From the NCBI GenBank assembly GCA_021397835.1, contig JAJFZO010000028.1:2589501-2653500 (forward strand): a stretch of DNA of 64,000 nt. The letters are read 5' to 3'. Below the pieces are notes generated by a model, which searched no databases, was not told the DNA's origin, and worked only from the letters and a program-made list of their open reading frames with translations. This DNA comes from Moringa oleifera (taxonomy: Eukaryota > Streptophyta > Magnoliopsida > Brassicales > Moringaceae). Position numbers and translations under genes: made by a program. Shown here piece after piece: positions 2,250 through 52,200 of this stretch (its first letter is position 1; every line of letters starts with the position of its first letter).

Positions 2250-5200
2250 TACATTTTTAGGGCATTAAGGGGTGTATCAAATCTTACTTTCATTGTGGCA
2301 ATATAAAGTGTATGCACATCTTAACCTTGTAAGATGTCGTTTAAAGTGAATAAGGTCTCTAAACAAAAAACCAAAATAAGGTATGTGCCAATATCGACCA
2401 GTGCAAATCAAATAATACCTTAAGTGGTTTTGATACATGGTCCCTACTATTAATTTTGAGTATCATAAATTGGCGTCATCTATAGGACCTAATATCCATA
2501 AATTTGGGGAGTTAAGGATGCGTTCACATACCTTGGACCTTAAAAGGTAGATTAAATCTGAAATCAGATATAAATTCACCAAAAAAATAACATATAAAAT
2601 TTAAGCACATTTTAATCTTTTAATATACTTTAACTAAATGAAATTTTCAAAAGATAAGACAACATGATATATTTCAATAACGATCAACATCAAAACAAAC
2701 AATATCTTAGGATGTTTCAATAATGATCTCTATCATTAATTTTAAACATTATCAATATATTTAATTCGTTCAAAATATGTGTATGATATGTAGAGTGAAA
2801 AAACTAAGGACAGATGAAATAAGATAAAGGTTAGTCAAACTTTTATTCATAACTTGCCTCTCATCTAGATATCCCACTTCTCATACCTTGAAAACAGCAA
2901 GTAGGAATTTGATTTTAAGCATTATAATACTCATTGGTTGGACTTAAACCGATTTGTTGTTGACCCTTTGCTCACCCTCTGTCATTGCCAATTGTATAAG
3001 TGGAGGTGATGAGCAGGGGACTGTATCCTCAGACAACCGAAAGTTAGTGAGTAGAGTTAGCCAATGAGCTAAATTACTATACGTTAACAATGCTACGGTG
3101 GTGACAGGTAGGAGGTCTGTGGCCCTATTAGTACTAGCAATAATGTATCCAAGAATATGATGATTTTGATGAGAGATTGAGCATATAGAAACCATGATGA
3201 CATTGATCCATACAAGAAACATTATTGTCGTACATAATATGAATTTGATAACACAATAATTACTTTCAAGGATATTAAAATGTTAGCTTTTTAGGGAATT
3301 AAGTGGTGTATCAAATCATACTTTCGTTACGGCAATATAGAGTGTATGCACATCTTAGCCTTGTGAGACGTCGCTTAAAGTGAATGAGGTCTCTAAAAAA
3401 TAAAATAAAAGAAGGTATGTGCCAATATTGACTAGTGCAAATCAAACAATACCTTATGTGGTTTTGATACATTGTCCCTACTATTAATTTTGAGTATCAT
3501 AATTTGGCGTCATCCTTAGGACCTAATATCCCTAAACTTAGGGTGTTGATGATGCATTAACATATCTTGGACCTTGAAAAGTAGATTAAATCTAACATCA
3601 AATATAAATTCACCAAAAAAATAGTATATAAAATTTAAGCACATTTTATCCTTTTAATATACTTTAACTGAATGAAATTTCAAAAGATAAGACTACATGA
3701 TATATTTCAATAACGATCAATGTCAAAACAAAAAAATATCTTAGGATGTTTCAATAAAGATCTCTATCATTAATTTTAAACATTATCAATATATTTAATT
3801 CATTGAAAATATGTGTATGATATGTAAAGTGAAAAAGCTAAGAACAGATAAAATAAGATAAAGGTTAGTCAAACTTTTATTCATAACTTGCCTCTCATTT
3901 GGATATCCCACTTCTCATACCTTGAAAACAGCAAGTAGGAATTTGATTTTAAGCATTATAATACTCTTTGGTTAAACTAAAATTGATTCGTTCTTGAACT
4001 TTGCTCACCCTCTGCCATTGCCAATTATATAGCTAGAGGTGATGAGTACGGGACTGTACCCTCGGACAACCGAAAGTTAATGAGTAGAGTTAACCAATGA
4101 GCTAAATTACTATACGTTGACAATGCTATGGTGGTGACAGGTAGGAGGTCTGTGGCCCTATTAGTACTAGCAATAATGTATCCAAGAATATGATGATTTT
4201 GATGAGAGATTGAGCATATAGAAACCATGATGACATTGATCCATACAAGAAACACTATTGTAGTACATAATATGAATTTGATAACATAATAATTACTTTC
4301 AAGGATATTAAAAAGTTAGCTTCTTAGGGCATTAAGGGGTGTATCAAATCTTACTTTTGTTATGGCAATATAAAGTGTATGCAATCTTGGCCTTGTGAGA
4401 CGTCGCTTAAAGTGAATGAGGTCTCTAAAAAATAAACTAAAAGAAGGTATGTGCCAATATTGACCAGTGCAAATCAAACAATACCTTATGTGGTTTTGAT
4501 ACATGTTCCCTACTATTAATTTTAAGTATCATAATTTGGCGTCATCCTTAGGACCTAATTTCCCTAAACTTGGGGAGTTGATGATTAACATATCTTGGAC
4601 CTTAAAAAGTAGATTAAATCTGACATCAAATATAAATTCACCAAAAAAATAGTATATAAAATTTAAGCACATTTTAACCTTTTAATATACTTTAACTGAA
4701 TGAAATTTCAGAAGATAAGACTACATGATATATTTCAATAACGATCAATGTCAAAACTAACAATATCTTAGGATGTTTCAATAAAGATCTCTATCATTAA
4801 TTTCAAACATTATCAATATATTTAATTCATTGAAAATATGTGTATGATATGTAAAATGAAAAAGCTAAGAACAAATGAAATAAGATAAAGGTTAGTCAAA
4901 CTTTTATTCATAACTTGCCTCTCATCTTGATATCCCACTTCTCATACCTTGAAAACAGCAAATAGGAATTTGATTTTAAGCATTATAATACTGTTTGGTT
5001 GGATTAAAACTGATTCGTTCTTGAACTTTGCTCACCCTCTATCATTGCCAATTGTATAGGTGGATGTGATAAGCAGGGGACTGTATCCTCGGATACCTAA
5101 AAGTTAGTGAGTATAGTTAGCCAATGAGCTAAATTACTATACGTTGATAATGCTACGGCGGTGACAGGTAGGAGGTCTGTGGCCCTATTAGTACTAGCGA

Positions 5201-35479: not shown

Positions 35480-35903
35480 GCAATGCAATTGATCGGACAA
35501 TGATTTCGCATCTTCAATTTGCAACTTCAATAGTAAATCATACAATGATTTTGTTCCTTTGATTTGCATCTTTCAATTGTACATCGTACCTTCAATTTGT
35601 AAATTATACCTCCAGTTTGCATATTCAATTCATACATTTAATAGTAAATCGTACACATATTTCATACTTTCAATAGTAAATCGTACCTTTAATTTGCTCC
35701 ATTAATTTCGTACCTCCAATAGTAAATCGTGCTTTAATTAGTAAATCGTACACATGTTTCGTACTTTCAACAGTAAATCATACTTTCAATGGTAAATCAT
35801 ACCTTCAATTCGCACCATTAATTTCGCATTTTTAATAGTAAATTATACCTTAAATAGTAAATCGCACCATCAATTTGCACCTTCATTGGTAAATCATACC
35901 TTC
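35480..35903. repeat. MULE intergenic minisatellite, left part
   Basis: Some 18-20 diverged copies of a ~20-25 bp unit around 'caatagtaaatcgtacctt'. It continues at 48,632-48,770 on the other side of CACTA-1, which shows that CACTA-1 inserted into this array. Related short copies occur near 8,215-8,350 in the miniature MULE. Confidence 0.88.
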
Positions 35904-35924
35904 CACTATTACAAATAAAAGCTT

Positions 35925-36265
35925 TAATGACAGTTTAAAATAGTTTTTAATGACAATTATAAAATTGTCATCTTTGTTCATGTCATTAAAGGGAAGAAGC
36001 TTTAATGATAGTTATCGAACTGTCATTGAAAGCATTTTTTAATGACAGTTCTATTGAAACTGTCATTAAAAGGGTGACTTTTTAATGATAGTTCTATTAG
36101 AATTGTCGTTAAAGGGGGTACCCTTTAATGACAGTTCTAAACAGAATTGCCGTTAAAAGGGGGTACCTTTTAATGACAGTTCCAACGAAACTGTCATTAA
36201 AAAAGGGGGACCTTTTAATGACAGTTCCAATGGTACTGTCGTTAAAAGGGGATACCCATTAAAGG
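35925..36265. repeat. CACTA-1 left sub-terminal repeats
   Basis: About ten copies of 'tttaatgacagttc' or its inverse 'gaactgtcattaaa', arranged as inverted pairs with 8-15 bp loops and a period of ~55-60 bp. The same motif recurs at 48,495-48,600 near the right end. These are the expected binding sites for the element's own DNA-binding protein. Confidence 0.93.
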
Positions 36266-36627
36266 TATTTTTTGTATTTATTTCAAAATAAATAAAAAAA
36301 TTTTATATTCAAATTATCCAAAACCTGCTTTCACATCATCCATATAGATCAATACAATTCTTCACAATATATATGCAACCAAAATTTTTATGTTATACAC
36401 TTCAATATCATTCTAGCAGAGATCGTCATTACTTTTTTCATATTTGAAAACACTCAAAATAATCTAATCAAAAAAAGTAATAAGAGATAAACAAAACAAA
36501 AGATTACTAAAGTTTGATGTTATAATTGGAATCTATATGTACAATACATGAGTTAAAATATTACACAATCCTAAAAATTCAACTATATAAATTCAATAAT
36601 GGTCATGTGTACAAAAATCTTCAAGGT
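36266..36627. other. CACTA-1 spacer, no gene
   Basis: A+T-rich DNA between the left sub-terminal repeats and the 3' end of the second ORF; probably its 3' untranslated region. Confidence 0.6.
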
Positions 36628-39600
36628 TCAACTTTCTAATATGGCACTCCAAAGAAATTGTCTAACCTCCTTTCTAACTTCATCAATATCTGATTGGGTG
36701 TAAGTATCTATGTCCACTAATTGTATTTCAAAAAAAAAGAAGTTAGTCCAATTAAAATTTTTAATAAACACATCAATTAATTACTTAAGTATTTACATAA
36801 GCAAATGATTAAAAACTTATCATTTTTGCATATGGGATATTTCTATCACGTCTATCAATGATGTCCCTTAAAAATTTCATAATATAATATCCACACTCAG
36901 TATTTGAAGGCTGATGTGGACACTGCATTAAAAATTTATCATTATTATATTTTGTAAAATAAATAAAACTAACATTACGTATAGGTTTAAATATACATAC
37001 CTTAGCAGGAATACTCATAGGAATGCGCTATTGCTTGATTCTTTGAAAACTTGAAACAATTTAAAAGAACTGCTAATAGAAAATAATCAATATTATTAAG
37101 AGTAAGAAAAAATATATACTAACATAAATGAAAATATTTTCACTTACGTGGACATAAGTTGATCTAGTTCTTGACGAGAACCATAGTTGAAAGGATCAAA
37201 AATACTATACACAAAATTACGAGGCTCGACAACCACCAATAACCAGTGCTGCCTACATTATGAAAAATAAATGTAAAAAATATTTTGAACAAATCTATTA
37301 ATAATTTTAATTAGTATTATAACTTACCTCAAGTTATAAGGAAATATCACTACTCCTTGATCACATGGATCTATCATTCTATTGGCTAAGTGATGAGCTT
37401 GAGTGTCTATACTTATAGACATTCCATATGACAATGTTGACGGATCAGCAAATACAAAATACTTTTTCAAGCCAAGTGCAGCTAAATCTGTATAAAGTTT
37501 ACTAAAATAATAAAGAGTAAGAAAAATATAAATATGATGTAGCTAAATAATAATAACCAAATAAAAATTCAAAAGACATACGTACACAATGTAAGCCTGA
37601 ATAATGGTGACACTTAGCTCTTCCATGTGACAAAATTGCATGATATCTTCTCGAGCCACAAATACATGTCCATCAGAAGCAAAGACTTCAGTAAAAGGTA
37701 TGTGTATTGCTTCATCAGGTGCCATCACCTTATTCACATAATTATATATCTTCTGTAATCCTTGTGGCAACCCAACGAAAGATACTTGTTGTGATGATTG
37801 TGGTTTTGTCAATGTTAGTGCTTTCTTAACTGGCAACTTACTTTGTTGCTTTATAGTCGATAGCTGAAAAAATTTTGCAAACTTAGTTGACATTAATAGG
37901 TTGACTTTATAAAATATATTACCAAAAACATTACCTTATGTGTACCAACAATGACCCAATCTCGAGGCCAAGCAACAACTAAACCAAGTGCAGAAAAAAC
38001 ATTTGTCAATCCACCGTCTGGTTTAGGACTAGGCAACTATGCATCACCATGAATAGCTATGTCCACTGTCACCCGAACATCACCAGAAAATAATGGACGC
38101 CCGTGGATGATCTGATTAGGAGTATGATCCATAAAGATAACCTCACTTGCCACTATGTAGTCTGATGATTGGATGGACATATGGCATGGCTCACACTGTA
38201 ATGATCCAAAAAAACAGAAGTTACGTTCGTAATATTATTAATATCAGATCTACTATGAATAACATGTAACATAGTTTGTTGTCGTGTGGTGCCACTGTAG
38301 GTGCAGGTGTTGGTGGTGTGACTGGTATAGGTGATTGAGGTATTGGATATTCTTCTTCCTTCAATAACCCAGTTATATTGTTGCTATCTTTACTTAAACA
38401 AAATTGCATTGTAGATTTTTCTTACTGGACATTATCATTTTTGTTCGCAACCATGTTTGTCAAAACCTTTTTATGCTTTGTAAACCACCTTATCATCTCT
38501 GCCAATTGCTATTGATCTAATTGCATACCTTGAGGGACATTCAACTTTTTGGGCTTCCCAAAATAAGATGTGATAGTTACCCCAGATCCTTGACCTCTAA
38601 TTCATCCGGGTGCTCAAGTGTACCAAGAGCTTTCGTCAGTACATCTTCTGGACCGAAGTTTGTAAATTTACCTTCTGTGCTCTGTGTCATCAACTCATCC
38701 TACAATGTTATAATAAAATTAATCAATAAACATGAAATTTATTACAATAAATGCTAGAAAAAAGTTGAACTACACTTATAATTCTTTCCCTACACAGTCG
38801 GCTCGCATCATTCACATATTCTCCGTTTTTATTCTATCGTGAAGCCTTTCATAATAAAGCACGATCAATTTGAGCATCGCTACCCAATGCTTATTTCTTT
38901 TTCTAACATAAAGAGTGAACATGTTAGATTTTAAAATGCACTACGAAATTAATATATTATTAATTATAAACATAATAAACGAAAAAAAAAAAAAACTTAC
39001 AAGTTCACTCTCCAGCCCTGCAAATCCAGACGATAATCGTACACATTCTTCTTTCTTTTCTCTTTTGCTATTTGTCTCTTTTCCTGTAAGATCAATACAC
39101 ATCAACATTTGGAGAAATTGTATAAACAAAAACTTTACTAACTATAAATATATACTTGAAACTCTTCTGTTATAGGAGAGTTCACAAATTCTTGCCACAC
39201 CCCAACATCAATAACACTGCTGTATTCTTCAGGTGGAAATGATAAAAATTTCAAGTCATCAATGTGAGGGAATATGTGCTTTGATGTAAGATTGGTCTTA
39301 AAGTTCCTCCATTTGTTTGCAGTAGACTGAAGTACGTACCTTTTCATGCTCGCATCAATATCATACGTCTCCTACAACATATTATAAAAAAGTGGATTGG
39401 TGCAAATCAAATTAATTAGCGGTTAACTAATTGAAAAGCAATACCACATTGTGTTTCATTTAACTTACCAATATTGTCTCCCAAATCTTATTTTTCATTT
39501 CAATGCTTACTGAGTGCTAATTCACGATATTTATAGGCACCGTATTATGTACCATTACCCCAATGTAGCTATTGAATTGGATGCTATTCCTCCCAATTGG

Positions 39601-39732
39601 TTGACCTTTATCATTTACCTTGATTGTGAACTTAACTCCGGAAGCACGACTCTTAATTATCTTAGGCATACTAGTGATACCTCGTTTTTTGGGCCCTTGA
39701 GAGCCTTCACTTGAGTGTTCAGAAGGATCCAT
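36628..39732 (-). pseudogene. CACTA-1 second ORF: Transposase_24-like plus Ulp1 protease
   Basis: Minus-strand, multi-exon. It starts MDPSEHSSEGSQGPKKRG at 39,732, followed by VKFTIKVNDKGQPIGRNS (39,517-39,690). Next is YVLQSTANKWRNFKTNLTSK and WQEFVNSPITEEFQ (39,138-39,347), the PF03004-type part. After a Pro-rich linker (38,221-38,409) a protease region begins: 37,543-37,893 has IHIPFTEVFASDGHVFV. Then 37,330-37,500 has DPCDQGVVIFPYNL. Near 37,150-37,255 it reads HWLLVVVEPRNFVYSIFDPF (catalytic His and Asp). At 36,809-36,930, QPSNTECGYYIMKFLRDIID gives the Gln and catalytic Cys. It ends with DIDEVRKEVRQFLWSAILE and TGA at 36,628-36,630. The His-Asp-Cys triad is intact. Splice junctions are plausible for several introns, but intervening breaks leave its integrity unproven. 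The protease type is that of SUMO proteases; its role in transposition is unknown. Confidence 0.8.
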
Positions 39733-39880
39733 CAAATCGATGAACAATAACAAATTATGGTTGGCATCATATATGCAAAATATGATATAACATGATAAAA
39801 TTAAAAAAATAAAATAAAATTATAAAAAAATAAAATAACTTTAACACATGAGGCAATTGATTACTACCTTAAAAAAATAC

Positions 39881-42800
39881 TCAAACCCACAACCCTTCAT
39901 CATTGTCTCGAGCATATACAAGATGATACTCATCCATTTGGTCAAATAAATCAGCAGGTGGCAAATTATTATAAGAAGACATGTGCTCCATACTAATATC
40001 GCACAAATTATGATCTTCATCATAGTCTTGTGGAGGTGTTGACAGTACTATAGACCATTTGGCATCAATAGGATCTTCAATGTAAAATACTTGTCTTGCT
40101 TGTGAAGCCAATATAAACTGATCATTCCTATGTCAAATCCGATTGAGATCAACTAGCATAACTCCTAGATCATCAACTTTAATACCACTACTATTCTCAA
40201 TCCAATCACATTTGAAAACTGGAACTCTGAAAGTTATATAATCTAGTTCTCATATTTCTTGTATAACTCCATAGAATGATAAATCACCATATATTAGATT
40301 TTTATCCTTAGCACTGGAGATTTGCATGGTGTTGGCAACTAGAGTGACACCACTATTTTGATGGATCCTTGAGTTATCTCGTTGTTTTGTGTAAAAGCGA
40401 CAACCGTTGATGATATATCCAGGATACTTGATTATTGTGCATCGAGGACCATGGGCAAGCCATCGTAGTGTTGATGAGACATTATGATTGGATAATAAAA
40501 GTTCATTCTCAATCTATATCATAACATATATTAGATGAACCATATTAAAAATAAATTTAATGTCTAAACAACAATAAGTATTCTTACCCGTGTGCGTAAC
40601 CAATGACTTAAGGTTCGATTGTATTCATCATGTAACTATTTGAGTCGTTTTGACTTGATAGAATTGTGGACCCTTAACTGATTTAAATGCTCACTGCATG
40701 TTAAGAATAAATCATCAAACAATAATTCAAATATTATTTCATATAATAATAAACTATAAGTCATAAAATTTACTTACTTTATATATGGTTGAACTTCACT
40801 TGTATTCATCAAAACGTACAAGTTCGCTTGATGAAGGAGGACATTATTAGCTTTCTCAATAGTTTCACTAGTTAGAGCTTTTCCATTCCGAGTTGAATGA
40901 CTAAGTACATTCTTTTGTGGGGGAATTCCAATAATATTCATGCCAGATAAATAGTCAACGCAGAATTCTAATGCTTCTTTTACTATGTACGACTCAGCAA
41001 TACTACCCTCAGGTCAATTATGATTTCGAACATAACCTTTTAACACTTTCATGTATCTTTCAAATGGGTACATCCATCGTAAATACACGGGACCACATAA
41101 TTTTACTTCTCTGATAAGATGAACTGTGAGGTGGACCATAATATCAAAAAAGCTGGGAGGAAAGTACTTCTTAAGCAAATAAAGTGTTGTGACAAGTTCG
41201 TTTTGAATTCCATCTAACTTTGACACGTCCACCACCTTTTGGCATAACAAATTAAAGAACATGCAAAGTCTGATGAGAGCATATCTAACATGTTTGGGTA
41301 GCACACCTCGTAAAGCAATAGGTAAAAGTTGTTGCAATAGGATGTGACAATCATGCGACTTCAACCCATATAGTTTCAAGTCGTCCATGGATACTAGATT
41401 TCTGATGTTCAAAGAATACCTATCCGAGACCTTAATCTCACTGAAAACTTTACAGAATATTCTTTTTCTTCCCTCGATAAAGTGTAGCATGCAGGTGGTA
41501 GAAATGTACGATTACCGCGAACTTGTGGTTCCAACTCAGACCTTAACCCCATGTCTTTCAAATCCATTCTTGAAGCTAATCCATCTTTAGATTTTCCTGG
41601 AATATCAAGTAATGTCCCAAGAAGACTATCACAAATATTCTTTTAAATGTGCATGACATCTAGAATATGTCTAATATGCATGGACTTCCAATATGGTAAA
41701 TCAAAGAAAATTGACTTTTTTTTTTAGCACAGTGTAACAACATCTTCTTTACCCATTGTACTTCATTTCTTCAACTTTCCCCATGAATTTACTAAACATT
41801 GAACTTTGTGAAAGACTTCTTCACTGCTTAATGGTTGGGGAGCAATTCTGAATTCTTGTTCACCATTGAAGGCCTTTTTCTGTCTGCGGTAAGGATGATA
41901 CTGTGGTAAGAATCTCCTGTGTCCAACATATGACATCTTTTTACTATATTTTAAGTGACTAACTTAGGTGTTCTCAGCACAGATAGGACAAGCATAATAC
42001 CCTTTAACAGTGCAACCAGATAAATTACCATATGCAGGAAAATCATTGATTGCCCATAACAAAACAGCTTTCAAGTTGAATGACTCATCACAGTACGCAT
42101 CATGTACTTTTACACCTGTGTCCCATAACATTTTTAAGTCTTCTATAAATGGAGCCAAGTAGACATCGATATCATTACCAGGTTGTTTAGGACCTGATAT
42201 TAGTAACGTCAACATCATGAACTTTCTCTTCATTGTTAACCATGGCGGTAAATTATAGTTCACCATAATCACCGGCCAATAACTATATCAACTACTCAAT
42301 GTACTATGCGGATTAATCCCATCTGCTGATATGGCAAGCCTTAAGTTTCTTGGCTCCGAAGCAAACTTTGGCCACATGTAGTTAACCAATTTCCATGATG
42401 GTGCATCCGATGGATGCCTCAACTAACCATCAATTTCCCTTTTTTTTGAATGCCATGTAAGGTTTTTTGATATTTCAGAACTTTTGAACATTCTTTTAAA
42501 TCTTGGTATTGGTGGAAAATACCGTAACACCTCAGCAGGCAGACCAGTCTTTATTTTGTTACCGTTTTTCATTACTTTCCATCTTCAAAGTCCACAAGTT
42601 GGACATTGAATGTCATCTTAAAACTCCTTTCGATATAATATGCAATCATTTGGACAGGCATGAATCTTTTGATACTCCATCCCTAATGCACTCAATGTTT
42701 TCTTGGCATCATACATGGATGTAGGCATTTCATTATTATCAGGCAAAATATCGATAATCAAATTTAAAATATCACTGAAGCTTTGATCGGACCAACCATA

Positions 42801-43258
42801 TTTTGCCTTCAAATTGTACAATTTAACTAGAGCAAATAATTTAGTAAACTTCACTGATCCAGAGTATAAAGGTTTCTCAGCATCACAAAGAATCTTTCAA
42901 AGTGGTTAGGATTACTATCATACTCTGCAAATGCTTCTTGTACCATTTCTATAGTGTTACCAACTTCTTCGATGTGTTCTACCTCCCTAACAACTTTAGC
43001 ATTCTTACTAGTAGAAGACCCAATAATACTGGTTTCTCCGTGCCATATCCAGTTTTGATAGCTGCTATCAACTCCATATATATATAAATGATTCCGTATC
43101 TCATATGGGGTATGACGCTTCATGTTGCCACATTTAATACATGGACACCGAACTAATTCAGGGTTATCACTATTTTGAACAGCATAATCTAAAAAGGTAT
43201 GCACCTCTACATCATATGCCTCTGATCTTCTATCAGCAAACATCCAAGTTTTATCCAT
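39881..43258 (-). pseudogene. CACTA-1 TNP2-type transposase
   Basis: Minus-strand gene starting MDKTWMFADRRSEAYD at 43,258. The Transpos_assoc domain occupies the first ~90 codons: RCPCIKCGNMKRHTPYEIRN, HLYIYGVD, WIWHGE. The Transposase_21 region follows: 42,618-42,854 has SFSDILNLIIDILPDNNEMP and ACPNDCILYRKEF. Then 41,964-42,272 has GPKQPGNDIDVYLAPFIEDL, DAYCDESFNLKAVLLWAIND and GCTVKGYYACPIC. DUF4218 is well preserved at 41,014-41,490 (LKLYGLKSHDCHILLQQLLP, FFDIMVHLTVHLIREVK, YLRWMYPFERYM). DUF4216 lies at 39,881-40,500 (PGYIINGCRFYTKQRDNS, VFKCDWIENSSGIKV, ASQARQVFYIEDP). Several TAG/TAA codons and frame changes between blocks inactivate it. Full domain content indicates an element that was autonomous in the past. 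Confidence 0.88.
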
Positions 43259-43974
43259 TCTGAAATTTAAAAGATATTTAATTATTTACTTTTCAAGCGT
43301 CTAATATACTAAGTGAAATTTAAATAAATGATTAATAACTATTTAATTAATTAATACAAAAAGTTAATGAAAGCATTTAATTAACTAACTATTAAATTAA
43401 TTCAAGTTTAAATAACAGTTATTATTTACCTTACAAGCATCAAATTTACTAATTAAAATTTAAATATATAATTAATAATTATTTAGTTAATTAAGATATA
43501 GTCAATATTTACTTAACATCTAATTTACTATATAAGCACTTAATTGATTAAAATTTAAATAACATTTAATGGTTTATATTACAAGCATATAATTAATTAA
43601 TTATCTATTTAAAATTTAACTAAATTTATTAATTTATGTTAACAATGAAATCAATATAATTAAATTTGATAAAATATACCAATTAATCTTACGTAAAAAA
43701 ATTAATTCAACCATAAATTCATCTACACTCAATATATAATTAATTTATCAAAATATAAATTCATCTAATTAACATTTTTAATTTATCAATTAATCTAAAA
43801 ATCTTAATAATTATGAAATAAGAAATATATCAATATATATCCATTTATACCAAATATGTTCATCAAAATATACTAATGAAAAAAAACTAAAATTTCATCA
43901 ATTAATAACAATTCACCTAACACAATTAATAAAAAACTTCTCAAAATATAAATTCATCTACCTGGACAGAGAAC
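43259..43974. other. A+T-rich 5' region of the CACTA-1 transposase
   Basis: About 700 bp of very A+T-rich DNA between the transposase start and the 105-bp repeats. It is probably leader or first intron. No coding sequence. Confidence 0.5.
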
Positions 43975-44400
43975 AAAGAGATGGCTGGAAAGGTTGCCAA
44001 CAGCTACCTCAATTGGTTATGGACGAACAATAGACAGGGAAATGGCCGGAGAATGGCTGGCTATGTGGACAGAGACCAAAATAGAGAGTGCTGGAAAGGC
44101 TGCCAGCAGCTACCCTAGCTGGTTCTAGACGAACAGCAAATAGGGGAATGGCCAGAGAATGGCTGGCTGTGTGGACAGAGACCAAAACAGAGAAGGCCGA
44201 AAAGGCTTCCAGCAGCTACCCCAGCTGCTTCCGGACGGATTGTAGACAGGAGAATGGCCGGAGAATGGTTGGCTGTGCGAACAGGGACCAAAAAAAGAGA
44301 GGGTCGAAAAGGCTGCCAGCAGCTACCCCAGCTGGTTCTGGGCGAATAGCAGATAGAAGAATGGCCGGAGAATGGATGGCTGGCTGTGCAGCTGCTTCTG
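43975..44400. repeat. four ~105-bp G+C-richer tandem repeats in CACTA-1
   Basis: The landmark 'gagaatggctggctgtgtgg' recurs (with changes) at about 44,051, 44,154, 44,263 and 44,365, with associated 'ctgccagcagctacccc' blocks between, giving a period of 102-109 bp. Open frames exist on both strands across the array (44,088-44,432 plus, 44,115-44,405 minus), but they follow the repeat and show no domain. The array is clearly richer in G+C than its surroundings and lies upstream of the transposase. Confidence 0.9.
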
Positions 44401-44504
44401 GACAATCTGTGAAGAGGAGAATTCTGACCTAGAGAGAAAAAATTTCGCGGGATGTTATGGAGGGCTCTAGAAAAATATTTAGATCCCCAACCTTAAAAAG
44501 CAAG

Positions 44505-44748
44505 GTAGCATATCCTTCAACGTCAGTTATTCCATAACTGGCGTTGAAGGTTCATATTCTCCGGCCTTCAACGCCAGTTATTCCAGAACTGGCGTTGAAG
44601 GTTCACATTGTTTGGTCTTCAACGCAAGTTCTCATGTGCTGACTTTTGTGCAGGAGTATGTGCGATGTGTGGCTCTGTAACCAGCCATTGCTGCTGCAAG
44701 AAGCAGCAGCAATGACTGCTGCTGTAACACAGCCATTGCTACTGCAAA
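44505..44748. repeat. CACTA-1 internal hairpin repeats, left of the laccase copy
   Basis: Inverted pairs of 'cttcaacgccagtt' / 'aactggcgttgaag' at 44,516-44,635, followed by a GCTGCT-rich palindromic segment ('agccattgctgctgcaagaa') at 44,683-44,748. The same two motif classes occur to the right of the laccase copy (47,860-48,480), so the laccase copy splits an originally continuous repeat region. Confidence 0.88.
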
Positions 44749-44815
44749 CCAGGGAGTGATTAACAACAACAGGCTCTAAATTCTAATAAAGGGATATGAA
44801 CAACATAGTCAAGGC
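44749..44815. repeat. left copy of the 67-bp duplication flanking the laccase insert
   Basis: Begins 'ccagggagtgattaacaaca' and ends 'catagtcaaggc'. It differs at three positions from the copy at 47,773-47,839, in the same orientation. Its right edge abuts laccase exon 6. Confidence 0.95.
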
Positions 44816-46968
44816 CCCAGCTGGTGTGGACTTCCAAGTGACAATGCATGAACAATACTCTTGTTATAAATGGTTGTTGTCATCAAAATCAAATAAAATC
44901 ATTAAACATATTGAATTTGTATTAGTATGGTGAGTTTTGCTCACCTGGGTTGTTTGCTAAAGACCGAATTGCCACCCAACCACCAGAGGGTACACCCACT
45001 GTGTTCCTCTCAACAAGATCAACAAGGTTGAAGTTTGCAGGGTCTTTATTTGGATCAAATTTCCCAAAACCTTGGCCTATAATGAAGAAATTAAAGCCAT
45101 GTAAGTGAAGTGGATGGCTCTCTGCATCAAATATGCTTGTATCCTACATGACTAGCTCCACACTAGTGTTAAAAGGCAGCACCATTAGCTTTGTCCCATT
45201 GCTGACCATGGTATTGTTAGGTGGATTGCCTGTATAATTGAAAGGAATCATGGGGTTTCTTGGGAAATTACTGGTGTAAACACCATTGAATTGACCAGAA
45301 AAGTGTGCCTGAAGAAGAGCTGAGGTTGGCATTGTGAAGGATACATTGTTGACAGAGGTTACAAACGTTGTCCCATTAGGTCCCTAGCAGGTTTGGTTAT
45401 ACTGGCAAGGATTAGTTCCTAGGCGTACTGTGAAGAAAAATCTCTTATCAACTTTCTGGGGCACATTAGCAGGGAATTGGGCACTTGCCAAGCTGCAAAG
45501 ATTGTTTGTATAATTTGTAGCAAAAGAAGTGTCATTGAGAGGAGGAAAAATTGGTTTAAATACTAAAAGGTTCTTGATTGAGGCTCTTATGTGAAGAGTA
45601 TTGGGTGGTGACACATATTCTACAACACCTGCAACAGTTGAGTTATCAAAAGTACCCAAGCCTATAGCATAAGGTCTAGCCGTCATGAAGAATTTGGCAT
45701 TTGGGTAGTGAGGTTTGGTCTTCAGAAGCACATTTGTGGTCTGTCCAGGTGCAATGAGAAGTGTTTGGGTCTCAAAGGGTTTGACATAGACAGCATCAGC
45801 TTCAACAACAATGAGTGTGTAGTTTGCTATGCTGAAGAAGAGCTCATCGTTGAGTGCAGCATTGATCAGTTGAAGAAGGTATGTCTTTTCGGGTTTCACA
45901 TTCAGCTTGAATGTATCTGCTAAGGCCCATTATAATTGATCATTAGTAACCTCCAATGATGATGATGTAACCTGGAACATTTAGATCTCACTGTAGTTTT
46001 GTGTTGATACCTTTAGCAGAACAGTTATATAATGGCCCTGGAAGTCCATTGAAGGTATAGGACTTGTTTGGAGTGCCTGGCTGATAATTGCTTTTGGATC
46101 TGCATTGAACCATTCTCTTGTAATATCAGAAACATTACAATTTATGTGAGCACATCCTGATTACCAAAACGAGAACTAAAATACAAGTAAATATTAGTGT
46201 GTTTCAGCAGTTAATGTTACCTAAAATGATGGGAACTTCCTTGTAAGGTTTCTCAAATGGGTAAGGAACACCATGCTTAGGAAGAATGACAATGGGACCA
46301 TAGACAGTTGCTCTAAGCCATGGGATGTGTGCATGCCAGAAAAGAGTGCCTCTTTGGCCAACAATGGTGAAGTTGTACACATAGCTTTGCCCAGTTTGTA
46401 TGGGGCACTGAGTTATATATGCAGGTCCATCAGCCCATGCTGTTTGAAGCTATCGAATTCCATGCCTATTTCACAAAGAGTAGGATTCAGGATTCAGATT
46501 ATGATGATTAAGGGAAGTACTAAAAATATGCTGTAGATATAAAGTTAATTTGGTGTCTATACTAGTGGATGGAGACGTTATTGGCGACATGGTTCACCAC
46601 TTTAATAAGTAATCTATCTCCTTCTCTTACTACAATACGAGGTCCTAGAAACTTGCCATTTACTGATACAATGCTCTTGGTGTGGCACAGACGCGTCACA
46701 TTTTGCAGCTTGACCTACAATCAGAAGAGGTTAAGAACTTGTTAAATGATTCTCAAAAAAGAAATAGTAAAGAAGCAGAATTCTGTATTTGCAATGGGAG
46801 TTAGCATGATAATAGTGTATATGTGTGACAAGGCAACATAACGCTTACATCAAACTTGTAGTGCCTAGTGATCCCAATTAGAGGCTCTAGTAGAAGAATA
46901 CAGAAAGAAATGAACCAAAACAAAAAAGCTACGAAGGAAATTGGTCCTGGAAGAACAGAGGTAGCCAT
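44816..46968 (-). pseudogene. captured laccase gene copy (multicopper oxidase), truncated
   Basis: Minus strand, six exons with canonical laccase exon sizes where undisturbed: 1, 46,849-46,968 (120 bp, ATG and hydrophobic signal-peptide-like N-terminus); 2, 46,563-46,714 (152 bp); 3, 46,221-46,465 (245 bp); 4, 46,011-46,117 (shortened); 5, 44,945-45,916 (972 bp); 6, 44,816-44,860 (cut). Laccases are secreted copper enzymes that oxidise phenols. Copper-site motifs seen: HWHG at the exon 2/3 junction (Trp codon now TAG), FWHAH, HPLHLHG and HCHLEVH. Lesions: TAG at the split Trp codon (46,564-46,563/46,465), at 46,450-46,452, at 45,384-45,386 and at 45,144-45,146. A ~22-bp deletion in exon 4 shifts frame. 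Acceptors of exons 4 and 6 read caa|G for cag|G. The conserved Trp before FMHCH is Leu. The last ~30 residues are missing. Introns are kept, so capture was of DNA, not cDNA. Certainly non-functional as laccase. Confidence 0.93.
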
Positions 46969-47772
46969 TGTTTGTCGGTAGTCCTTCTTTGAATGCTTAA
47001 GTTTCAGGATCTTGAACTGACCCTTGTATAGATATACACCATAGTCTATGGGCTGCTGTATATATAGAAGTGAAGTGCAGGGTGTCTGGTTGATTAGGTG
47101 AATACAAACACTATACTTTACCGATACGAGAAAATCAGAATTGGTTCGTACAATTACTTTGATATGACCTGTTGTTACAGCAGAACAACTTTAGAGTAAT
47201 GTCAAAGATAATCAACTGTCTTTGACCTCCTTTCTCTTCAAGTTAATCCTTCACCTTCCACATATTGTTTCTAAAATCCTTCGTACTCTCATACTCCTAG
47301 GTTGTCCAAAATAGTTACTTCCAATATTCAGCTTGAAAAACCAACCTGGAGGCTTACCTGTTTTCTTACAAACAGCAAAGAAACAGAAGAAATTAATTTG
47401 TGAACTATGCATTTTCTAATTCAATCTGATAAATGACAGTGGAACGAAAGGAATAATATCCTTGCATTCCTTTGCAGCCACACAGGTGACTAATGGCAAT
47501 TGGTGAGTTTATAGGACAAGACCTTTAAAATTGAAAGCAATACCATTTGGTATATAGATTTGTACATCAATGTTATGAATCTGTGGCTGCAGTCTGACTG
47601 TCAAAATGTAACCTTAATTGCAGTTTGTCTGAGATTAATCATTAGCAGTCACATCTGCTATTGTTGGTGATAAAGCTTATGCTAGGTTCCCATCAAGTAA
47701 TCATTTTAGAGTGTATAGTTTTTCATCGGAAAGAAGGGAAACCTCAATACAAGCATCCTTTTTCGAAGCAAT
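46969..47772 (-). promoter_or_regulatory. captured 5' flank of the laccase copy
   Basis: About 800 bp upstream of the laccase ATG, up to the right-hand 67-bp duplication. A TATA box ('ctatatatacag' on the minus strand, core at 47,059-47,066) lies ~90 bp from the ATG, so a start near 47,030 with a ~60-bp leader is plausible. The sequence is unlike the rest of CACTA-1, which fits it being part of the captured host segment. Confidence 0.65.
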
Positions 47773-47839
47773 CCAGGGAGTGATTAACAACAACAGGCTT
47801 TGAATTCTGATAAAGGGATATGAACAACATAGTCAAGGC
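47773..47839. repeat. right copy of the 67-bp duplication flanking the laccase insert
   Basis: Same orientation as 44,749-44,815 with three differences (all A/G or C/T). Its left edge abuts the laccase 5' flank and its right edge leads back into the GCTGCT-rich CACTA-1 repeats. Confidence 0.95.
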
Positions 47840-47859
47840 ACAACTAGTCCTCAATCCAG

Positions 47860-48480
47860 CCATTGCTGCTGCTTCTTGCAGCAACAGCAGCAGTCGTTGC
47901 TGCAGCTGTAAGCAGCCATTGCTGTTGCAAGAAGCAACAGCAACGACTGCTGCTGTAACCCAGCCATTGCTACTGCAAGAAGCAGCAGCAATTGGCCTTT
48001 GACACCAGTTCTTCAAGAACTGGCATCAAAGGCTTTATGTTTAACGTCAGTTCCTTCAGAACTGATGTTAAATCCAGACATTGTTGCTGCCTCTTGCAGC
48101 AACAGCAGCAGTCCTTGTTACAACTGTAAGCAACCATTGCTGCTGCAAGAAGCAGCAGCAACGACTGCTGCTGTAACCTAGGCATTGCTGCTGCTTCTTG
48201 CAGCAGTAGCAGTCCTTACTGCAGCTGTAAGCAGCCATCGCTACTACAAGCTGCTGCTTCTTACAGCAGCAACAGCAGCAGCTGTCCTTGCTGTAGTTGT
48301 AAGCAGCCATCGCTACTGCAAGAAGCAGCAGCAATTTTGGCGTTTGACGCTAGTTCTTCAAGAACTGGCATCAAAGGCTTTATGTTTAACATCAGTTCAC
48401 GTTAAATGTCAAATTCTTGTTCTTTTAACATCAGTTCTTTAGGAACTAACGTTAAATGTTTAATTCATAGGTTTTTTAAC
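47860..48480. repeat. CACTA-1 GCTGCT-rich palindromes and inverted repeats
   Basis: Repeated palindromic blocks of the form 'ccattgctgctgcttcttgc ... gcaagaagcagcagcaa', each ~60-70 bp, are interspersed with 'agttcttcaagaactggc'-type and 'aacatcagttcttta'-type inverted pairs. Frames open on both strands across 47,744-48,442 are by-products of the repeat (poly-Leu, Gln, Ala and Cys). Confidence 0.9.
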
Positions 48481-48631
48481 GCCAGTTCTTCTTTAATTTG
48501 CATTAAAAACCTTACTTTTAATGATAGTTTTGGAATAACTGTAATAAAAAATGTTAATAAATCTTTTAATGACAGTTCTTTGAATAACTGTCATTAAATT
48601 GATGTCAATTATTATAATTTTTATAGTAGTG
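48481..48631. repeat. CACTA-1 right sub-terminal repeats and terminus
   Basis: 'tttaatgatagttttggaat' and 'tttaatgacagttctttgaa' with their inverse copies, matching the left array at 35,925-36,265, followed by the terminus ending TAGTAGTG at 48,631. Confidence 0.93.
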
Positions 48632-48770
48632 TTCAATAGTAAATTACACCTTCAATTCGCAGCTTTAATAGTAAATCATACACTTATTTTATGTCTTGAA
48701 CTCACAATAGTTCATACTAAATCGTTCACTCACAATGAATATGTGACTCGAATTCATAGTATGATTGGAA
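48632..48770. repeat. MULE intergenic minisatellite, right part
   Basis: Continuation of the 'caatagtaaatcgtacc' array interrupted by CACTA-1. The first three bases, TTC, are the target duplication. Confidence 0.85.
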
Positions 48771-49429: not shown

Positions 49430-52200
49430 AATATTATTCAAATATCAGTGATGACTTCTCATAATATTGCTAGAAAATAGTTAAAACCAATGAAGATGTA
49501 CCTTACTCACAGTGTCCCAAGCTGGATAATTAGGATAAAATTGGCTTCTCACACAATCCAAAAAGTCTGGTTCCTACTTATGTGCTTTAAAACTGGAGTG
49601 TGGAGGTGGATAATCGGCATCTAGATCCTTTTGATATTCGTTATAAATGTAAAAAAGTGTAGTGTATAAATTTGAACAAAACAAAGTCAAGAAACAAATT
49701 GAATAAAAAGTCATCCAAACAATTAAAGTCCAATGAACTTACATAAAGCCAAGGATCACAAATGCAAACATCTTGTACATATTGTTAAGGAAGCTCCCTT
49801 TGCCTTCTCCGAAGGAGATTCAAATATGCTTTAATGTGCTGGTTGAGACATAAGAAAAGCAATAGTGTAATATTAAATCAATGTACGAAACGAAGGCACA
49901 AATGTTAATTCTTAATATGAATGTAAAGAATAGTGTTTTGTAAAATGACCAACTTACAGAGTCATCGACCTACTTATCGTTATCTTTGAAGGCTTTGAAC
50001 CATTCCATACTAACTGAATGACCAATACTTACATTACGGTTAAAGAGAATGAAAATAAAGTATGAGAAAAAAATAAAAAAAATTAAAAATTTAGTTTAAT
50101 GGAACGTAAAATACAAATATAAATGACTTATTATGATTGGCCATTCATAAACTCGTTGAATGTAATGAGGATCATGTCTGTAAATTTGGCCTTTGCATTC
50201 ACCAAGTAAGAGTACTTGGCTTTCTTAGTCCCAATGTTAAGGTTGACATATGGGCTGCATAGTTATCTTCATCGTTTATGAGTCCTAACAATTGGCAGCA
50301 TACTGTCAGTTGCCTCAATTGGGATAATAGCCAAGTCCCCCACTTTTTCATTGCATGGACCCTACAGTGACCATTTCCTCATCCATGGGCCCTATAGTGG
50401 CTATTTCCTCGATAATTGGCCCTACAGTGGTTCTTTTTCATGGAACTGCCCTGCAAGAGCCAAGATCTCCTCAGTGGAGTCTTTTGACTCCTCAGTTTCC
50501 TCAACGATGGGATAACGTGATATGGAGCTTGGATTAACACCCTGGGGAAAAAAAAAACAATTAAAGATGTCATCTTCATGTCATAAGTTGCATAATATTA
50601 TAAAATTATGATAAGATATAGATACAAATAGATTGAAAACCAAAAACTAAACTAATGGCTACATATGTCATTACTTACAGCATTGGGAACTAGATCTGAC
50701 ATAGTACAAGGAGGGTCTTGGCCACCAAATCCGTATCCTTGTAAGGAGAACTGGATGGATTTTAAGATAACCATTTGCTCCTGATGGCATCTTTCATTTT
50801 AGGAATCCATTTGATTTACTTTTTCCTTAAGGAGATCTAATTTCACCTTCATAGTAGTGAGGCGATGGTAAACTTCTAGATCCTTTGCAATCCTTTCTAC
50901 GCTAGGTGCTTGACCTTTAACATGATCTTCTCACACCTTGGATTCCATCCTCTGTCTCCCCGGCTCTTTTCTATCACTGATGACTTCATCAGATTGGTCA
51001 TCCCTCAATCGCTTGACAAAAAGAAATCTAACTCGTCGCTACAAGTAATAACAGTTGTTGACTATAAAATACAAAAACAAAAAACTCATATATATTATAA
51101 AGAATACATATCTTGTATTGCTTTGGCAAAAAAAAAAGGCAATTTTGTGGAGTTTTTCTAGAATGGGACTCTCGATAGTGTCATCATCCCTACTCGATCG
51201 TGCAACTAGGACATTAGCTTGAGCATATGGCTGCAACTATACGACAGTGTCTTTAACCCAACATAGTAAGAGGCATGACGCTTAACAGTTATTGGCTCCA
51301 ATTTTAGCTTAGCCCTCATCTGAAAATACAAAATAAAGCTTCTAAATTGAAAAATAAAGACAAAATTGAGAATGTAGGTATGAAATAAAAAATGTAGATG
51401 CAAAATTGAGAATACAAGTACAAAATGAAAATAAAGATACGAAATTGGTAATGTAGGTACAAAATGAAGATATGACATTAATTATAGTGTTTGTGAAGAT
51501 CTTCTTGTAGTCTGCATTATGTGACTTCTGATGGAATCTCCATCGATAAATTTGAGGCAATGGCAGGTTAGAGCCTAACAACCTACTACCGTGCATGTTG
51601 TAGCCCGGAATCACTTTAAAGGTAAAAATCTATGGAAAAAGAAAATTAAGTTAGGCTTGATAAAAATAAAATTTGAATCAAATAAAACTAAAAAAAATAA
51701 TAAAATAAAAAGGTACGATCCTTACTTGCAGTGCCCATATGAAGCCATAGGCATTGTAGATCACCCTATCAACATCCATGGCTTGGTTCGCAACTGCCTT
51801 CTCGAAATGCAACAATTACCTTCTTGAAATGCAATAACGAGTTATAGTAGACCCATATGTCCCATGGAAAAGCTATTAAAAGCTTCAATATTGTTTACCA
51901 AATGAAACAGTCACTTACAAACATGCTGATGCTCATCATAGCCTTTGAGGAAGCCATTTAACAAATACAGGAACCTTAACTTCACCTTGTCATCTTCTTT
52001 CTCAAACTTTCCTTTGAGTAGCCTTGTCTTGATACTAGTACCACTGACCTTATCCCTCCCCCCGACGTATTTAAAGAGGATATCAAATGGATTAGCAGCA
52101 ATGTTGTCTGTGCCCGATAGCTCACCAAACTTCAAGCCAATGATTAGATAGAATTCTACTTTGTCGAAACAAACCTCAATCTGCCTAAGTTTGAACCATA
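49430..52200 (-). pseudogene. MULE-borne DUF1985/Ulp1-like gene
   Basis: Minus-strand gene in broken frames. The N-terminal DUF1985-type region (51,911-52,200) reads VEFYLIIGLKFGELSG, FDILFKYVGG and DDKVKLRFLYLLNGFLKGYD. A middle part at 50,740-50,900 is coiled-coil-like (ERIAKDLEVYHRLTTMKVKL). Downstream blocks resemble the region before the Ulp1 catalytic core of such transposon proteins: MEWFKAFKDNDK near 49,990-50,020, HIKAYLNLLRRRQRELP near 49,800-49,845, and DFLDCVRSQFYP near 49,520-49,570. I do not find the His-Asp-Cys motifs, so the catalytic end is missing or too decayed to see. Multiple stops are present. It converges on the MURA gene. Captured Ulp1-like genes are known in plant MULEs. 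Confidence 0.65.

Follow-up and report, generated by a model that had tools for sequence, protein, structure and literature searches.

A decayed laccase gene inside a Moringa CACTA transposon, likely written there by template switching during repair of the element's repeat-rich 5' end

How does a host gene, with its promoter and introns, come to lie inside a DNA transposon? The question is raised by a stretch of Moringa oleifera DNA (here called the window: 64,000 nucleotides, C572:2589501-2653500 of the 279.5-Mb assembly that was searched), in which a preliminary description, made from the letters alone, had placed a nearly complete laccase gene within an autonomous-type CACTA element. In the available text of a 2026 review (PMC13317346), the uptake of unlinked gene fragments by DNA transposons is left open. 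The pertinent features of the window, by position, are these:

35901-35903, no strand: target-site duplication TTC, left, flanking the CACTA element
35904-48631, minus strand: CACTA (En/Spm-type) element, 12,728 bp, with ends CACTATTACAAAT / TTTTTATAGTAGTG and its transposase on the minus strand
39881-40132, minus strand: ORF with DUF4216 domain
41014-41511, minus strand: ORF with DUF4218 domain
41799-42431 (C572:2631299-2631931), minus strand: Transposase_21 domain (PF02992) with three internal stops
42851-43285, minus strand: ORF with Transpos_assoc domain (PF13963)
43963-44480, no strand: minisatellite of ~105-bp units between transposase and cargo, seen as self matches
44746-44815, minus strand: 70-bp patch copied out of order from the donor's 5' flank, adjoining the truncated 3' end of the laccase
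44816-47858, minus strand: captured laccase gene (broken), with ~890 bp of 5' flank, exons 1-5, the start of exon 6, and five introns; 94% match to the donor on C518
44812-44860, minus strand: laccase exon 6, first part, cut 26 codons before the donor's end
44945-45916, minus strand: laccase exon 5, 972 bp, with stops at codons 393 and 473
46011-46117, minus strand: laccase exon 4, 129 bp in the donor, with a 22-bp deletion and acceptor AA in the window copy
46221-46465, minus strand: laccase exon 3, 245 bp
46563-46714, minus strand: laccase exon 2, 152 bp, its HWHG copper motif interrupted by a stop at codon 91
46849-46968, minus strand: laccase exon 1
47059-47066, minus strand: TATATATA box of the captured promoter, identical in the donor
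47858-48400, no strand: array of subterminal GCTGCTGC-type repeats, lying to the right of the cargo
48632-48634, no strand: target-site duplication TTC, right, flanking the CACTA element

The laccase does lie, as had been proposed, within the ends and target-site duplication of a single CACTA element. The terminal inverted repeats are of the CACTA type (CACTA at 35,904 and CACTACTA on the minus strand at 48,631), the 3-bp duplication is TTC on both sides, and the element has direct and inverted subterminal repeats, as CACTA elements do. Read from the right end, its order is GCTGCTGC-type array, laccase cargo, minisatellite, and then a minus-strand transposase region in which Pfam recognizes Transpos_assoc, Transposase_21, DUF4218, and DUF4216 domains. 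The laccase is oriented in the same direction as the transposase, as the preliminary description had it. The layout of the family and the presence of transposase-type domains fit an element of autonomous type, but the word does not suit the window copy itself: PF02992 matches a single ORF at 1.2e-50 and reaches 317.7 bits across the whole domain, which is interrupted by one TGA, one TAG, and one TAA. With three stops in its Transposase_21 domain, the element is non-autonomous today. Domains without stops occur at other places, among the best 150 of 1,535 candidates scored, and in that sample two of them belong to laccase carriers (C572:4063367 and C572:4599309). Outside the element, a further CACTACTA motif on the minus strand (window 50852-50859) may be due to chance; the window holds 7 CACTACWA motifs, where 4.3 are expected.

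Where did the laccase come from? A search of the assembly with the 2,957-bp laccase segment gave 45 matching pieces, of which one (C518:2226780-2229764) stands alone at 94% to the window copy. At this place lies an intact laccase gene of 582 codons (C518:2226694-2228954), with GT-AG splice sites and exons of 120, 152, 245, 129, 972, and 131 bp. Plant laccases carry the copper motifs HWHG, HAH, HPLHLHG, and HCH, and all four are present in this gene, which matches the TIGR03389 laccase model at 921.7 bits (cut-off 558.9). For exon 5 the closest sequences are plant laccases; several of the matches listed are named laccase-17, and the named ones among the 120 listed are plant laccases, mostly from eudicots. 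The nearest paralogue, on C523, was rejected as donor (71%, compared with 94% for C518). For exon 4, a 168-bp model was dropped in favor of 129 bp at a downstream acceptor, where the C523 paralogue has matching residues. The preliminary description had made its reading depend on finding a donor elsewhere with matching introns, and on C518 there is one, whose 5' flank matches as well. Apart from the captured stretch, the patch, and a laccase-like neighbor, the 20 kb around the donor contain no CACTA match. A second laccase-like stretch lies 2-5 kb from the donor in the opposite orientation (C518:2231991-2234468), which suggests a laccase cluster on C518. Several laccase-like matches (68-70%) also lie close together at C13:5472652-5490473, and these are probably a tandem cluster.

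Alignment to the donor, which runs from 47,858 to 44,812, changes the outline of the captured copy in some respects and not in others. The five introns and the exons of 152 and 245 bp are where they had been placed, their positions agreeing with those of the donor, and the TATA box TATATATA at 47,066-47,059 is confirmed, standing 98 bp upstream of the ATG in window copy and donor alike. The retention of five introns rules out a retrogene. A 5' flank was indeed captured, but with the ATG at 46,968 its length is 890 bp and not some 800 bp. Similarly, the segment 44,816-47,772 does consist of captured laccase, but the real block extends from 44,746 to 47,858, beginning at 44,746 because 44,746-44,815 is itself a displaced piece of the donor's 5' flank. 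The copy may be called nearly complete in that promoter and introns are present and only the last 26 codons are missing (it reaches codon 556 of 582, exon 6 being represented by ~49 of its 131 bp), and Pfam finds Cu-oxidase and Cu-oxidase_3 in it, but it has decayed. Four codons (91, 96, 393, and 473) have become stops, exon 4 has lost 22 bp, and the acceptors of exon 4 (as modeled) and exon 6 read AA in place of AG. The window copy is a pseudogene, not a working gene. The capture by a CACTA element of a nearly complete laccase, together with promoter and introns, is supported.

The same cargo is found at separate sites in at least 10 CACTA copies, ten having been read (the window's and nine more), so that all counts of carriers are lower bounds. 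Each of the ten has both ends, some with changed terminal bases. Perfect 3-bp duplications flank seven of them; the carrier on C532 retains two of the three bases, and in two others (C563 and C572c) the ends are changed and the duplication is unclear. Since ten carriers at separate sites each have both ends, the two ends belong to one element, and the concern that they might derive from two different elements falls away. Eight of the ten share a cargo start at donor base 149-151 (C572c and C572d have lost the start), and eight share an end at donor base 3224-3227 (C532 and C563b have lost the end). These shared boundaries suggest that the laccase was taken up in a single capture event. Divergence is 4.7-7.5% among carriers and 4.0-6.4% between carriers and donor, as would fit a capture that was soon followed by spread. 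The search for copies with and without the insert, as had been advised, gave ten carriers and an empty relative (L040). The transposase stretch yielded 557 candidates on a first look, 40 of which were scored, and beside that number the laccase carriers look like a small branch. Two further places, on C516, hold laccase fragments according to the genome search, and this pair is possibly one insertion duplicated with its surroundings. A remnant (L031, C665:481150-481628) has had nearly all of the laccase deleted, with the patch, ~35 bp from exon 6, and the outer portion of the 5' flank surviving. The C572b carrier (L013) is rearranged: beside its cargo lie displaced pieces of the array and a second copy of the laccase 5' flank, ~790 bp long.

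What became of the cargo once it had spread? All nine read copies that have coding sequence contain premature stops, 2-8 each; the remaining one, C563b, has lost its coding sequence entirely. The stop-making base changes are almost all C>T or G>A (32 of 33), 24 of them at CG or CHG. Several stop codons have been hit in different sets of copies, a pattern that recurrent change may have left. With the ancestral base leaning on that of the donor, C>T changes per site in the cargo amount to 0.146 at CG (43/295), 0.115 at CHG (200/1738), and 0.033 at CHH (211/6325), and A/T transitions to 0.007 (89/12278). The transposon body gives 0.102, 0.108, and 0.044 for the same three contexts and 0.006 for A/T transitions. 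The ratio pN/pS in the laccase copies, which leans on the donor base in the same way, is 0.96 (277 N, 86 S), the observed N/S of 3.22 being slightly above the 2.65 of a context model, and changes affect 361 of 10593 exon sites (3.4%) and 306 of 10049 non-exon sites (3.0%). Fixed differences that separate the donor from the carrier group number 62; exons account for 19 (of 1,667 sites) and the remaining sequence for 43 (of 1,404). By type, 31 are transversions, 16 have C in the donor and T in the carriers, and 15 run the other way. Considered together, the footprint, the pN/pS, and the fixed differences indicate that the copies decay like transposon DNA, while the exons of the donor appear constrained. 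The excess of C-to-T change at CG and CHG, in cargo and body alike, is likely a footprint of methylation, and the cargo may well have been silenced together with its carrier. The laccase set lets one see the fate of a cargo: it spreads, and then it decays, acquiring a C-to-T footprint similar to the one in the transposon body.

These observations bear on three other ways to regard the laccase. It might be a native locus around which CACTA sequences happened to land, as its introns and promoter would allow, but then one should not meet it inside the ends of ten read elements at separate sites, nor find a complete CACTA-free gene on C518 that has the 3' end the cargo lacks. The carriers and the intact gene refute unrelated ends around a native gene, and we give the idea practically no weight. 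Nor does it seem at all likely that the captured laccase is functional and selected, now or recently, even though its promoter, TATA box included, and five introns came with it: exon and non-exon rates are alike, none of the read copies passes the cut in exon 6, and the stops in every read copy with coding sequence, with a pN/pS of 0.96, led us to reject it. It is easier to imagine, though still improbable, that transcripts of the insert feed small RNAs acting on the donor laccase. The copies are still ~94-96% like the donor, and the methylation-like footprint extends across the insert, as such a source of silencing might have it; but the donor's frame is intact, and fixed differences between donor and carriers are rarer in exons (19/1667) than outside (43/1404).

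If the laccase was captured, by what route did it enter? The patch at 44,746-44,815 is in direct orientation but out of order, 72 bp matching the donor's 5' flank at 95.8%. A search with 44,460-44,815 found it joined to the array at eight loci, including the window and the C665 remnant, with the match extending to position 356 of 356 at seven and to 355 at one; in the same search it was absent from the array joint in C572b, C563b, and the two C516 fragments. By eye, AATCCA is shared where the 5' end of the laccase meets the array, and AGGC where the patch meets exon 6. Over the joints inspected, any microhomology would be short, 0 to 6 bp as judged by eye. When placed on L040, the empty relative, the laccase joints fall at 239 and 552, as if ~312 bp of array had been replaced, a figure made uncertain by the repetitiveness of the array and by a second-best position of the right joint at 333. 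Breakpoints at the centers of palindromes looked good by eye, but over 10 joints, a subset of all, the mean score was 5.2, against 5.57 at array positions (P = 0.81), and the idea was dropped.

A donor left in place, an out-of-order patch, and short shared bases fit repair driven by synthesis with template switching. According to this model, the repeat-rich 5' end of an element would have been under repair (presumably of a gap in the subterminal array) when synthesis switched to the donor laccase as template, copying the gene into the element while the donor stayed where it was. Such switching would also account for the 70-bp patch, and the cargo would then have spread with the element and been silenced along with it. 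Another route is described for Arabidopsis Pack-CACTAs in the available text of PMC13317346: two CACTA elements flanking the laccase would lose their facing ends and move as a hybrid. Donor sites free of CACTA remnants could, by that account, be products of excision. However, it predicts a collinear capture and leaves the out-of-order patch at the 3' joint unexplained, and five donor stretches (2.5 to 20 kb) contain no CACTA match beyond the captured parts, so we consider it unlikely. That the segment is a dead laccase copy in a CACTA element, probably written by template switching during repair of the repeat-rich 5' end, is a reading in which we have considerable confidence.

Is the slot reserved for laccase? 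Relatives were found through 44,460-44,815, the left side of the slot, which they often cease to match at ~44,745, and eight such or related loci, besides C665, were read for cargo. Host segments were found as follows:

L032:976-2224: bZIP segment (Pfam, 1.1e-06)
L033:1007-2749: receptor-kinase segment (2.1e-27)
L036:386-1342: segment from the 3' end of a GRAS gene, also in L037
L039:524-1419: zinc-finger-like segment, matching C583:4136981
L030:2315-4100: HSP20 and CBF/Mak21 pieces (4.6e-15 and 7.2e-07)

The bZIP segment matches C18:3770527-3771800 at 94%, and a frame of 160 codons is open there; given a bZIP_1 cut-off of 27.6 bits, the donor frame falls just under (27.1) and the captured copy scores 29.1. 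The kinase segment matches C565, where an open frame of at least 767 codons runs off the stretch. In L036 and L037 the segment corresponds to the end of a GRAS frame (2.9e-80 in the donor) at C18:3767770 together with the sequence downstream of it; of the frame itself, no more than about 19 codons at the end were taken. On C18 the likely donors of the bZIP and GRAS segments share an orientation and are separated by ~1.8 kb, so one longer capture followed by deletions is possible. No zinc-finger match above the Pfam cut-off was found for cargo of the L039 type, which we take to be zinc-finger-like from its motifs; on its right side L039 returns into sequence of the left-flank type. L030 was rejected as an empty relative, having an HSP20/CBF cargo of its own, for which no donor turned up; when its left joint is placed on the empty relative, the match is weak. 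L040 is empty of cargo, and L038, whose right end was not located, looks empty. The four non-laccase donor stretches (2.5-4.2 kb read) contain no CACTA match; for laccase and four other cargoes, then, the likely donor is free of CACTA sequence over the stretch examined.

A cross-count was made over the 38 distinct loci with the longest matches, from 128 matches to 44,460-44,815, more distant paralogues and short repeat matches being left out. A known cargo lies within 6 kb at 25 of the 38 (laccase 11, kinase 6, bZIP 3, GRAS 3, zinc-finger-like 2), figures that, given the selection of relatives by likeness to the left side of the slot, say nothing of captures elsewhere in the element. One of the 13 loci without listed cargo is the laccase remnant on C665. 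Kinase, bZIP, and zinc-finger-like sequences each occur at exactly one place without the flank, the donor, while laccase and GRAS have one extra flankless place each (C532:3371343, which is a carrier, and C532:3117959, respectively). The HSP20/CBF cargo is not tied to the flank by this test, because all 13 of its listed places are without it.

The presence of other host genes in this zone of sister elements makes it seem open to repeated capture. Perhaps the subterminal array upstream of the transposase is a recombination hot spot at which template switching has repeatedly replaced array DNA with host genes and left the transposase region in place, an idea we put forward tentatively and with some doubt. 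If it were true, a self-propelled family would be shuffling genes through a single slot. The joints can be read base by base, because the filled elements, the empty L040, and the likely donors of five cargoes are all in one assembly.

CACTA elements with captured genes are already known, and the window element is another case. Gene fragments are said to be carried by a soybean CACTA element (Zabala and Vodkin), and Brassica Bot1 is reportedly a CACTA element with part of a host gene. A literature search for capture of a laccase gene by CACTA elements found no report, and articles on transduplication of laccases by transposons, judged by title, included none about CACTA. Set beside published CACTA captures, as far as the accessible portions of those papers go, what is less usual is a cargo of ~3 kb, promoter and five introns included, next to a transposase region, and the occurrence of several cargoes in one zone with their donors in one assembly. 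The Tpn1 family (En/Spm) of Japanese morning glory, as described in the available text of PMC5105172, likewise has members with host genic regions between conserved CACTA ends, but those gene carriers are non-autonomous, with the internal part substituted, whereas the window element keeps its transposase region, though broken. In Chenopodium CACTA elements (the available text of PMC8978399), captured fragments lie, as here, in the 5' region, upstream of ORF1, which is called capture-prone; the fragments there are small (e.g., 80 bp of AP2), while here they reach 3 kb, with the donor located and the decay measured. Pack-CACTA and other Pack-TYPE elements resemble the window element in having captured genic DNA between terminal inverted repeats (PMC8903248 and PMC13317346, as available). 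By the definition in the accessible part of PMC8903248 they lack a transposase, and the window element, retaining a recognizable one, differs from them in this. Finally, the grapevine element Cactavine-5 (the available part of PMC2528002), known in two copies, has part of a host gene with its 3' untranslated region beside the transposase, like the window element, but downstream of the transposase and in the opposite orientation.
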